This document shows positions 13,396 through 35,949 of a stretch of DNA of 36,506 nt, piece after piece. Source of the stretch: Actinomycetota bacterium (GTDB taxonomy: Bacteria; Actinomycetota; Acidimicrobiia; IMCC26256; PALSA-555). The position numbers were made by a program, and so were the translations under genes. How positions within the stretch are numbered: the first letter of the stretch is position 1; each line of letters opens with the position of its first letter. The notes below the pieces were generated by a model. It was not told the origin of the DNA, ran no database searches, and saw only the letters and a list, made by a program, of their open reading frames with translations. The stretch lies in contig VGCA01000007.1 of the NCBI GenBank assembly GCA_016870245.1, forward strand, positions 1 through 36,506, given 5' to 3'.

Positions 13396-16088
<2,693 letters not shown>

Positions 16089-16097
16089 CCCTCGTCC

Positions 16098-16442
16098 ATG
16101 GCCGAGCAGCGGCGCCACGCCGCCCACGCCCAGCAGCACCGGGTCCGCCGGCGGCGCGGCGTGGTGGTGCTCGTGCTGCTCGGATTCGCCGTCGTGGTGG
16201 TGCTCTTCGCGTTCGTCTACCCGACCCGCACGTTCCTGTCGCAGCGGGAGGAGGTCAGCGCGGCCGAGCGGCGGCTCGAGGTGCTGGAGGAGAGCGCGAA
16301 GGCGCTCCGCCGCGACAACGCGCAGCTCCAGACCGACAGCGAGGTCGAGCGCCGCGCCCGCGAGGACTTCGGCATGGTCCGCCCCGGCGAGACCCCCTAC
16401 GTCCTCGTCCCCGCCCCGCCCCCCACCACCTGGCTCCCGTAG
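16098..16442 (+). CDS. ftsB: Septum formation initiator protein, FtsB/DivIC family
   Basis: The 114-aa single-pass protein belongs to the FtsB/DivIC group that bridges FtsQ/DivIB and FtsL in the divisome. The cytoplasmic N-terminus is very basic (RVRRRRG). A transmembrane helix spans about 22-43, and an extracytoplasmic coiled coil runs from about 48-90 (EEVSAAERRLEVLEESAKALRRDN). The typical EVERRAREDFGMVRPGETPYVLV ending follows. It starts 9 nt after eno, so the two are probably one transcript. The family call rests on topology, motif and position; whether the cell would call it FtsB or DivIC cannot be decided. Confidence 0.9.
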   Translation: MAEQRRHAAHAQQHRVRRRRGVVVLVLLGFAVVVVLFAFVYPTRTFLSQREEVSAAERRLEVLEESAKALRRDNAQLQTDSEVERRAREDFGMVRPGETPYVLVPAPPPTTWLP

Positions 16443-16460
16443 CTCCCCCGACACCCGTTG

Positions 16461-16528
16461 ATGCGTCCCTGAGCGACGCTCAGCGTCGGTCTGGGGACGC
16501 ATGGTCTGACCATGCGTCCCTGAGCGAC
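16461..16528. repeat. 27-bp perfect palindrome with flanking 17-bp direct repeats upstream of the DUF501 gene
   Basis: ATGCGTCCCTGAGCGAC occurs at 16461-16477 and again at 16512-16528. Between them GGGACGCATGGTC (16494-16506) and GACCATGCGTCCC (16508-16520) form a perfect palindrome around one T. GGGACGCAT (16494-16502) can pair either with the first or the second ATGCGTCCC, giving two mutually exclusive hairpins. A smaller palindrome, GACGCT-C-AGCGTC, lies at 16475-16487. The large palindrome covers about -56 to -30 relative to the DUF501 start, overlapping the -35 zone of its promoter. It could be an operator, an attenuator for read-through from ftsB, or a dispersed repeat. Confidence 0.85.
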
Positions 16529-16536
16529 ATCGGTCG

Positions 16537-16542
16537 TACACT
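16537..16542 (+). promoter_or_regulatory. Candidate -10 element (TACACT) for DUF501-ppx, leaderless
   Basis: TACACT ends exactly 7 nt before the GTG at 16550, with no Shine-Dalgarno sequence. The palindrome at 16494-16520 ends 16 nt upstream of it. Confidence 0.5.
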
Positions 16543-16549
16543 CCGAGCC

Positions 16550-17059
16550 GTGCCGGCCACGCTCGAGGATCGTGACGCGGTCGCGGCCCTGCTCGGGCGG
16601 GAGCCGACGGCCGACTTCGACGTCGTGGTGCGACGCGCACACGGCGCGCCGGTCGTGATCCGCAACGCGCCGTTCACTCGCGACGGCACCCCGATGCCGA
16701 CGCGCTACTGGCTGGTCGACCCCGAGTGGAACCGCGCGGTCGGCCGTCTCGAGGCCGACGGCGGCGTCGACGAGGCCGAGGTCGAGATCGGACCGGAGGC
16801 GCTCGCGGCGGCGCACACCGCCTACGCCGCAGCACGCGACGCCGTGATCGCCGACGACCACGCCGGGCCCCGACCCTCCGGTGGCGTGGGTGGCACCCGC
16901 ATCGGGGTGAAGTGCCTCCACGCGCACGTCGCCTGGCGCCTCGCGGGGGGCGACGACCCGGTGGGCGACTGGGTGCTCGCTCGGCTCGACCCCACACTCC
17001 TCGCCGACACCCGTCCCGACGACCGCGCCGCGCCGGCCGCCGCGGGGGATCCGGCATGA
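16550..17059 (+). CDS. DUF501 domain-containing protein
   Basis: The 169-aa protein belongs to the actinobacterial DUF501 family, of unknown function, nearly always encoded between an ftsB-like gene and ppx. Recognisable parts are the LLGREPTADFDVVVR opening, the Pro-rich turn around PMPTRYWLVDP, and the conserved GGVGGTRIGVKCLHAHVAWRLAGGDDPVG block. Its Cys-Leu-His-Ala-His could bind a metal, though that is speculation. The GTG start is supported by the -10 element 7 nt upstream. The stop overlaps the ppx start as ATGA, so the two proteins are probably made together. Confidence 0.88.
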   Translation: MPATLEDRDAVAALLGREPTADFDVVVRRAHGAPVVIRNAPFTRDGTPMPTRYWLVDPEWNRAVGRLEADGGVDEAEVEIGPEALAAAHTAYAAARDAVIADDHAGPRPSGGVGGTRIGVKCLHAHVAWRLAGGDDPVGDWVLARLDPTLLADTRPDDRAAPAAAGDPA

Positions 17060-17997
17060 GCCGCCGTCTCGGCGCCGTCGACATCGGCACCAACTCGGTC
17101 CGCCTGCTCGTGGCCGATGTCGACGGCTCGGACGCCGACATGCGGGTCGCCACCCTCGAGCGGCTCATGACCATCACCCGGCTGGGGCAGGGCGTCGACG
17201 AGGAGCGCCGGCTCCACCCCGAAGCGATCGCCCGCACCCTCGCGGTCCTCGACCGCTACGGCGCGATCGCCCGCGACCTGGGCGTCGAGGCGTTGCGGGC
17301 CACGGCCACCAGCGCCGCGCGCGACGCCGCCAACCGCGACGACCTGTTCGATCCGGCCGAAGCCGCCCTCGGCGTGCGGCCCGAGCTGCTCAGCGGCGCC
17401 GAGGAGGCCCGGCTGTCGTTCCTCGGTGCGACGGCCTCGCTCGCCGACGTGGGCGCCACCCCGCCGTACCTCGTGGTCGACATCGGCGGCGGATCCACCG
17501 AGTTCGTGCTCGGCACCGACGCGCCCTCCGGCCTTCTCTCGGTCGACATGGGATGCGTGCGCATCACCGAGCAGTACCTGCACTCCGACCCTCCGGCACC
17601 CGAGGAGCTGTCGACCGCGGTGTCGATCGTGCGCGATCACCTGACCGACGTGGAGCGGGCGATCCCCGACCTGCGCGACGCCCGCACGCTCGTCGGTCTC
17701 GCCGGCACCGTCAGCGCCGTCGCCACGGTGGAGCAGGGTCTCCACGAGTACGACCGCGACCGCATCCATCACTTCCGGCTCACCCGGGCCGCGGTGGAGG
17801 ACGTGTTCCGCACCCTCGCCACCGAAGCGGCCGACGATCGCCGCCACAATCCGGGTCTCGAGGCCGAGCGGGTCGACGTCATCGTGGGCGGCGTGACGGT
17901 GCTCGCCACCGTGATGCGCACCTTCGGCTTCGACGAGCTGCTCGTGTCGGAGGAGGACATCCTCGACGGACTGGTGCGGGACCTCGCCGCCCGCTGA
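17056..17997 (+). CDS. ppx: Exopolyphosphatase / guanosine pentaphosphate phosphohydrolase family (Ppx/GppA)
   Basis: The 313-aa product is the short actinobacterial Ppx form: the ASKHA-type N-terminal catalytic module without the extra C-terminal domains of E. coli Ppx. Visible motifs are the phosphate-binding GAVDIGTNSVRLLVADV (about 6-22), ALRATATSAARDA (about 82-94) and the second phosphate loop VVDIGGGSTEFVLG (about 139-152). GLAGTVSAVATVEQG follows later. The family hydrolyses polyphosphate or (p)ppGpp; short actinobacterial members differ in activity, so the exact substrate is open. The ATG overlaps the DUF501 stop. Confidence 0.92.
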   Translation: MSRRLGAVDIGTNSVRLLVADVDGSDADMRVATLERLMTITRLGQGVDEERRLHPEAIARTLAVLDRYGAIARDLGVEALRATATSAARDAANRDDLFDPAEAALGVRPELLSGAEEARLSFLGATASLADVGATPPYLVVDIGGGSTEFVLGTDAPSGLLSVDMGCVRITEQYLHSDPPAPEELSTAVSIVRDHLTDVERAIPDLRDARTLVGLAGTVSAVATVEQGLHEYDRDRIHHFRLTRAAVEDVFRTLATEAADDRRHNPGLEAERVDVIVGGVTVLATVMRTFGFDELLVSEEDILDGLVRDLAAR

Positions 17998-34157: not shown

Positions 34158-34913
34158 TCAGCCCACCAGGAGCCGGACGGCGGCGATGACACCGACGACG
34201 ACGACGGCGCCGCGCAGCCATGGGCCCGGGAGGCGACGGCCCACGTGCGCGCCGGCCTGGGCACCGACGATCGAGCCGATCGCGATGAGCGCGGACACCT
34301 CCCATACCACGTCGGCCGAGAACACGAAGATCAGCGCGGCCACGCCGTTGGCGATGAGGGCGAGCACGTTCTTCACGCCGTTGAGTCGCTGGAGCGAGTC
34401 GATGATGAAGATCCCGAGGAGCGACAGCAGGATCACGCCCTGGGCAGCTCCGAAGTAGCCGCCGTACACGCCCGTGAGCAGGATGCCGACCCACAGCACC
34501 GGCCCCCCGTGCTCCACGTGCGCCTCCCGGCGGCCGGCGACCCAGGCGCTGAGCCGGGGCTGCACGATCACCAGCGCGACCGCGAAGAGGATCAGCACGG
34601 GGACCACGGCGTCGAACACCGACGACGGCAGCGTGAGCAGGAGGATGCTGCCGGTGATCCCGCCGATGAGCGAAGCCGACCCGAGGAGCAGGAGCCGGCG
34701 CCGTTGGCCCCGCAGCTCCCGCCGGTAGCCCACGGCGCCGCTCAGCGAGCCGAACACGAGGCCCACGGTGTTGCTCACGTTGGCGGTGACCGGCGAGTAC
34801 CCGAACGCCAGCAGCGTGGGGAAGGTGATGAGCGAGCCGGAGCCCACGATGGTGTTCACCATCCCCGCGAGGAGGCCGACCCCGAGGATCGCGACCGCCT
34901 CCCAGACCGACAT
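34158..34913 (-). CDS. TSUP (TauE/SafE) family permease
   Basis: The 251-aa membrane protein has about eight hydrophobic segments in two repeats. The family signature GLLAGMVNTIVGSGSLITFPTLLAFG (about 13-38) opens repeat 1, and GVYGGYFGAAQGVILLSLLGIFIIDSLQRLNGVKNVLALI opens repeat 2. TSUP members export sulfite, sulfonates or other sulfur or organic anions; no substrate can be chosen here. The ATG at 34913 is supported by TAGGCT 9 nt upstream. It is convergent with the CoA-transferase gene and divergent from moxR, so it may or may not belong to the catabolic cluster. Confidence 0.92.
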   Translation of the reverse strand: MSVWEAVAILGVGLLAGMVNTIVGSGSLITFPTLLAFGYSPVTANVSNTVGLVFGSLSGAVGYRRELRGQRRRLLLLGSASLIGGITGSILLLTLPSSVFDAVVPVLILFAVALVIVQPRLSAWVAGRREAHVEHGGPVLWVGILLTGVYGGYFGAAQGVILLSLLGIFIIDSLQRLNGVKNVLALIANGVAALIFVFSADVVWEVSALIAIGSIVGAQAGAHVGRRLPGPWLRGAVVVVGVIAAVRLLVG

Positions 34914-34928: not shown

Positions 34929-34995
34929 GAGGCGCCCGTCGACGGGCGCCTCGACCGTTCGTGCCGTCGCGGTCCGGACCCCGTCGGCGACCTGC

Positions 34996-35007: not shown

Positions 35008-35949
35008 ATGGAGCAGGGCAGTGCGGCGGCGGTCGCCCGGGCGCTGATCGACAACGTCGAGCGGGCGGTCCTCGGCAAGGGCGATGTGGTCCGCATCGTC
35101 GTCGCGGCGCTCCTCGCGGGCGGCCACGTGCTCATCGAGGACGCGCCGGGCACCGGCAAGACGCTGCTCGCCAAGGCGCTCGCCCGTTCGATCGGTGGCA
35201 CTGTCGGCCGGGTCCAGGGCACCGCCGACCTCCTGCCGTCCGACGTCACCGGCGTGACGATCTTCGACCCGGAGCGCCGTGAGTGGGAGTTCCGGGCCGG
35301 GCCGGTGATGCACAACGTGCTGCTCGTCGACGAGATCAACCGGGCCACGCCCCGGGCCCAGGCCGCGCTGCTCGAGGCGATGGCCGAGCGTCAGGTCACG
35401 GTCGACGGCGTGACCCGGCCGCTTCCCGACCCGTTCTTCGTGCTCGCGACCCAGAACCCCCACGGCGAGGGCGGCACGTTCCCGCTGGTCGCCGGCGAGT
35501 ACGACCGCTTCGCCGTGCGCGTGCACCTCGGCGCGTCCGACCGCGAGAGCGAGCGGCGGCTCCTGCGCGGGGAGGGCGGACTCGGCGGGCTCGACAGCCT
35601 GGTGCCCGTCGGCACTCCCGAGGGCATCGCGCGGGCCCGGTCCGAGGTGGCGCGCCTGCACGTGGCGCGCGGGGTCGAGGACTACGTGCTCGACCTGGCC
35701 GCGGCCGCCCGGACCGACGCCGCGATCCCGCGCGGCATCAGCACCCGAGCGGTCCAGATGCTCCTCGGGGTGGCGAAGGGCCATGCCGCGGTCGCAGGGC
35801 GGGACTTCGTCACCCCCGACGACGTGCAGGCGGTCGCCGTCGCAGTCCTCGCCCACCGTGTCGACGACGCGGGCGGCCTGGCGTCGACCGCGGCGGGTCG
35901 TGCCGCGGTCGAGCGGCTGCTCACGTCGGTCTCGGTCCCGGTGGCGTAG
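35008..35949 (+). CDS. MoxR family AAA+ ATPase
   Basis: MoxR ATPases act as chaperones that mature partner proteins, commonly those with von Willebrand A or DUF58 domains. The 313-aa protein has Walker A APGTGKT (46-52), Walker B LLVDEINRA (Asp108-Glu109), and sensor 1 FFVLATQNPHGEGGTFPL. The MoxR-specific EAMAERQVTVDG and the lid region PRGISTRAVQMLLGVAKGHA with the sensor 2 Arg are also present. It lies 9 nt upstream of a DUF58 gene, the usual partner, so the two form an operon that continues beyond the window. Confidence 0.94.
   Translation: MEQGSAAAVARALIDNVERAVLGKGDVVRIVVAALLAGGHVLIEDAPGTGKTLLAKALARSIGGTVGRVQGTADLLPSDVTGVTIFDPERREWEFRAGPVMHNVLLVDEINRATPRAQAALLEAMAERQVTVDGVTRPLPDPFFVLATQNPHGEGGTFPLVAGEYDRFAVRVHLGASDRESERRLLRGEGGLGGLDSLVPVGTPEGIARARSEVARLHVARGVEDYVLDLAAAARTDAAIPRGISTRAVQMLLGVAKGHAAVAGRDFVTPDDVQAVAVAVLAHRVDDAGGLASTAAGRAAVERLLTSVSVPVA

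Follow-up and report, generated by a model that had tools for sequence, protein, structure and literature searches.

The 27-bp palindrome between ftsB and the DUF501 gene is very probably one copy of a non-coding, non-autonomous, REP/MITE-like palindromic repeat that has multiplied in a single Acidimicrobiia species. Its ~36 copies have a fixed polarity, prefer a TGA triplet at their outer end and are absent from relatives, and we infer transposition in trans as the way they spread and TGA as the insertion target. This removes a false lead, namely a special operator for DUF501-ppx. It also brings to light a repeat family of the Acidimicrobiia that seems not to have been described before, is limited to one species and follows an insertion rule that can be measured (3′ of TGA). 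As this rule illustrates, apparent targeting of stop codons can arise from nothing more than the fact that the majority of intergenic TGA triplets are stops, and the family lends itself well to testing ideas about palindromic repeats that have no recognised transposase.

The unit between ftsB and DUF501

In the window (the whole 36,506-nt stretch analysed here) the ftsB/DivIC-like gene occupies positions 16098–16442 (Pfam DivIC, 1.3e-14) and ends with TAG at 16440–16442, and the DUF501 gene follows at 16550–17059 (Pfam DUF501, 1.3e-25); these genes and all the features of the gap are on the + strand. The initial annotation described a perfect palindrome in this gap, and it is indeed there, with arms GGGACGCATGGTC (16494–16506) and GACCATGCGTCCC (16508–16520) that are 100% identical as inverted copies and separated by one T (13+1+13 = 16494–16520). 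Among hairpins of this class (loop up to 8) in the window none other is as long, and 30 resampled versions of the window under a first-order Markov model had just 0.03 hairpins per window with arms of at least 13. The second copy of the flanking 17-nt sequence ATGCGTCCCTGAGCGAC is also present as described, the two direct copies lying at 16461–16477 and 16512–16528 with a spacing of 51.

These parts make up one repeat unit of ~68 bp at 16461–16528, which is matched by our covariance model of the repeat (R1) at 16457–16531 with 92.1 bits and aligns with 19 other copies. It consists of an outer arm, ATGCGTCCCTGAGCGAC (16461–16477), a 7-nt linker GCTCAGC (16478–16484, delimited by the alignment of copies) and a long imperfect hairpin, GTCGGTCTGGGGACGCATGGTC-T-GACCATGCGTCCCTGAGCGAC (16485–16528, from the repeat search and DNA fold), which contains the perfect core. 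The arm is preceded by GTTG, and the TGA at 16459–16461 abuts it as in most copies; since ftsB ends with TAG, this TGA is outside its frame and is not its stop. The copy thus falls between the ftsB stop and a promoter-like box of DUF501 and not on an in-frame TGA. Folding gives z = −4.15 for 16440–16550 as RNA and z = −6.5 for 16457–16532 as DNA. The competing hairpin that had been proposed is also predicted, in that 16461–16502 alone folds as DNA by pairing ATGCGTCCC with GGGACGCAT at −19.7 kcal/mol, nearly equal to the −20.5 kcal/mol of the hairpin at 16481–16528 with which it competes for the same strand. Its outer helix is 96% paired across copies and shows no covariation; stem conservation is no evidence for RNA structure here because the copies share their sequence by descent, and we rejected a selected RNA structure, as the stems lack covariation.

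The initial annotation suggested an operator or a read-through attenuator; one that acts specifically on DUF501-ppx would account for the palindrome, the alternative hairpins and the −10-like box TACACT at 16537–16542, which lies 8 nt downstream of the unit. However, the same sequence occurs in some 30 unrelated gaps, mostly at the 3′ ends of genes and not at promoters, and the ftsB-DUF501 gap has no such repeat in the three genus-mates or in 41 further relatives (relatives found through DUF501 are Acidimicrobiia MAGs), which argues against a conserved regulatory role; this reading is thus highly improbable. In the genus-mates the gap is short or different and retains TACACT 13 nt before DUF501, and because they keep this box without the palindrome, the repeat appears to have come in upstream of a promoter-like box that was already there. 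The distance is shared by the four genomes of the genus and is not kept beyond it, a placement that suggests a (nearly) leaderless DUF501 promoter. The copy in the window separates ftsB from this box, and we see nothing in it that points to a regulatory role under selection. The gap of one genus-mate (G002, locus L037) is ~150 nt long, unlike the others of the genus, and carries a GC-rich inverted repeat of its own.

A search of positions 16000–17100 for intrinsic terminators (a GC hairpin followed by a T run) found no terminator-like site, and the Rfam covariance models gave nothing above the gathering score, only a sub-threshold chance match elsewhere. The window also contains a second palindrome of 12+12 bp with no spacer at 34929–34952 (GAGGCGCCCGTCGACGGGCGCCTC), which lies in a divergent gap between a − strand gene (5′ end near 34913) and a + strand gene that starts near 35008, and is a candidate operator.

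Copies in the genome and absence from relatives

The initial annotation held that tens of scattered copies would mark a repeat element, and a genome-wide search for the arm and the palindrome found just that. With up to three mismatches allowed, the 17-nt arm has 66 matches in its own genome compared with six for a reversed control, and a 25-nt palindromic core has 61 compared with none. The covariance model, built from 20 copies, gives 65 overlapping matches, many of which are the two strands of one palindrome, and so corresponds to ~33 units. In total we count ~36 units, spread over 25 contigs of the 3.36-Mb draft genome, three partial copies included and the two halves of a double form on contig C222 taken separately. 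The genes that flank them are unrelated and ordinary. An integron attC-like reading was considered because the arms follow stop codons, and was rejected because the copies are scattered singly over the 25 contigs.

The anatomy read from the 30 loci comprises the outer arm ATGCGTCCCTGAGCGAC, a 7-nt linker (mostly GCTGGGC) and an imperfect hairpin of ~44 nt, GTCGGTCtgGGGACGCATGGTC-n-GACCATGCGTCCCcaGACCGAC. In some copies two half-units stand back to back and make up a symmetric double form of ~93 bp, for example C222:2696–2794, which folds end to end; terminal inverted repeats are thus present in the full form, and many copies are one-sided. Identity between copies is 68–92% (median 81%), and the repeat has therefore not been active recently. 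The start of the arm (16461–16472 and other copies) reads ATG CGT CCC TGA, a three-codon ORF that begins with an ATG overlapping the TGA stop, and no longer ORF is present in the frame that starts at this ATG. Two genes (on C18 and C70) terminate at the inner TGA of the arm, and the module lengths of 42, 51 and 93 are all multiples of 3.

Searches for the repeat were negative in the three genus-mates and eight further genomes of the family, in 57 genomes of the order and 295 of the class besides its own (genus-mates included), and in plasmids and phages. The exact core is absent from viral_contigs and from the 84,980 species genomes of genome_contigs, a set that may not include its own genome. 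Frequent 15-mers of genus-mate G001 (1.14 Mb) contain no comparable repeat family, and we found no published description of the repeat in a literature search that left out most subscription journals.

Probable insertion sites and gene ends

Gene ends near the copies were taken from a simple codon-usage gene caller. TG stands directly before the outer arm, making TGATGCG, in 29 of 36 copies. The resulting TGA is the in-frame stop of the neighbouring gene in 18 of the 27 assessable copies, and this stop shares the first A of the arm. The outer neighbours are nearly always oriented into the outer arm (32/34), and some convergent gaps (on C33, C70, C105, C151 and C222) have a separate copy at each gene end. 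Convergent, unidirectional and divergent gaps number 13, 14 and 1 at copies compared with 183, 728 and 186 in the background, so that convergent gaps are over-represented (13/28 vs 17%, p = 3e-4) and divergent ones rare. Among same-strand TGA triplets in gene gaps 62.6% are stops, this and the gap background coming from the window and the 1.14 Mb of G001 and not from the whole of the repeat's own genome. The observed 18/27 (67%) matches the ~63% expected under random choice among gap TGA triplets (p = 0.41), so a TGA target and loss of insertions inside genes are sufficient, and recognition of stop codons as such is not needed.

Comparison with G001 is informative at several of these gene ends. 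At C33:18004–19302, C75:4754–5581, C105:2887–4011 and C222:2791–3966 the G001 gene already ends with TGA at the same codon and has no repeat, although the C222 counterpart is only 53% identical. At C30, C83:2118–3302, C151:5919–6626 and C162 the G001 frame runs further, and the stop has thus moved. No exact empty site was found at base resolution, as the gaps of the nearest genomes are too diverged, and the copy termini have no TA and no recognisable target-site duplication.

The most likely course is that the palindrome would be moved in trans by some enzyme, copies inserting with fixed polarity so that the outer arm comes to lie directly 3′ of a TGA triplet, and that they would survive almost only in intergenic DNA. 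As TGA triplets between genes are mostly stops in this GC-rich lineage, most copies would then lie exactly on gene ends, often in convergent gaps, where two copies, one from each gene end, may sometimes fuse into the ~93-bp double palindrome. Insertion with polarity just 3′ of a short sequence resembles the mode of IS200/IS605 elements and REPs. The narrower proposition that this is a mobile palindrome with strand-specific insertion just 3′ of TGA, with stops as safe landing sites and a mover other than a Y1 (RAYT) transposase, is tentative, and we think it rather unlikely to be right in all its parts.

It is also unlikely that the copies are domesticated 3′-end elements under selection as bidirectional terminators, mRNA 3′-end protectors or ribosome-stalling hairpins. 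Copies that abut stop codons exactly, the excess of convergent gaps and the very stable folds all favor such a role, and ribosome stalling has been reported in E. coli for REPs that lie within 15 nt of a stop (PMC12306157). Against it, overlap with stops is no higher than TGA-targeted insertion predicts, the gap in the window has no T-run terminator match, the stems do not covary, a ~3.4-Mb genome has only ~36 copies and its genus-mates none, and the hairpin in the window starts 18 nt past the TAG of ftsB. Such a role could also hold for part of the copies in addition to their being mobile by origin. If the copies are mobile palindromes, those that are transcribed would form strong hairpins just after stops, and any effect on transcript ends or on ribosomes at termination would be incidental at most; the upstream gene could plausibly feel side effects where a copy abuts its stop, and less so in the case of ftsB because of the 18-nt distance.

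Search for a mobilising enzyme and relation to known repeats

A Y1_Tnp (RAYT; PF01797) search had no match in the repeat's own genome (an assembly 95% complete) while control genomes were positive, and no DDE rve integrase domain was found there; the Y2_Tnp profile also had no match, but its controls were silent too. The Y1_Tnp and rve searches, which survey the IS content in part, thus revealed no parental insertion sequence. The repeats might instead be the ends of a larger, gene-carrying mobile unit, and inverted pairs 0.2–1.1 kb apart on C27, C75, C83, C98 and C234 point that way, as do the helix-turn-helix plus Vsr-like nuclease gene on C98 and the methyltransferase gene between a pair on C83, a gene that G001 lacks at the corresponding position. 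Most copies, however, do not flank a gene in pairs, the genome's four other AbiEi_4 genes lie on contigs without copies, and the "cargo" gene on C75 keeps the same upstream neighbor in G001 without copies there, so that a larger unit of this kind is improbable. The C98 gene (L073, 2090–3031; AbiEi_4 + DUF559) is tightly bracketed by its two inverted copies, and was rejected as a mobiliser because only one of five such genes is near copies. The C83 methyltransferase gene (L072, 3385–4005) possibly was inserted together with the repeats, or was lost in G001.

Among known repeats, those of mycobacteria called MIRUs are similar in being actinobacterial and dispersed, with a module length that is a multiple of 3 and a stop/start-type TGA/ATGA insertion site. 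MIRUs target a TGA-type site, and TGA stands at the outer arm in 29 of 36 copies here. Our repeat differs in being palindromic, with nearly half of its gaps convergent and only the three-codon ATG CGT CCC TGA in place of a coupled ORF; MIRUs are described as ORF-carrying and located at the start codons of coupled genes (PMC12548453). It is like MITEs (ERIC, RUP, NEMIS) and CIR repeats (PMC2229807) in being a ~100-bp, non-coding, intergenic inverted-repeat element with inverted ends in its full form, and is unlike them in that we found no TA at its termini, no recognisable target duplication and no parental insertion sequence.

The annotation stated that no listed family explains the palindrome, and this stands for Rfam, none of whose families match; the kind to which it belongs, REP-like interspersed palindromic repeats, is nevertheless well known (PMC3733652). 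Like the GTAG and CGTC REP superfamilies (Di Nocera et al. 2013; PMC3733652), the repeat is short, dispersed, strongly palindromic and species-limited, with frequent inverted pairs, and lies mostly near 3′ ends in convergent or unidirectional gaps and rarely in divergent ones. GTAG REPs often supply a TAG stop to flanking genes, as our repeat supplies TGA, and CGTC REPs have no dedicated transposase, as none was found here (PMC3733652). It differs from REPs in its unit of ~68–93 bp, a module spacing of 51 bp instead of 20–40 bp, a copy number of ~36 rather than the typical >100, and the TGA at its outer end. With the GTAG REP/RAYT system it shares dispersed extragenic palindromes (~36 units in gene gaps), without a Y1_Tnp gene having been found and with no GTAG tag in 16461–16528 or the consensus; CGTC REPs have an unpaired CGTC tag and an 8–9-bp stem that starts with A-T pairs and closes on a 4–5-nt loop, whereas our repeat has a GC-rich, perfect 13-bp stem with a 1-nt gap. 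Although it thus departs in specific features from GTAG REPs with RAYT, CGTC REPs, MIRUs and the Rfam families, the repeat belongs with the REP-like/MITE-like interspersed palindromes.
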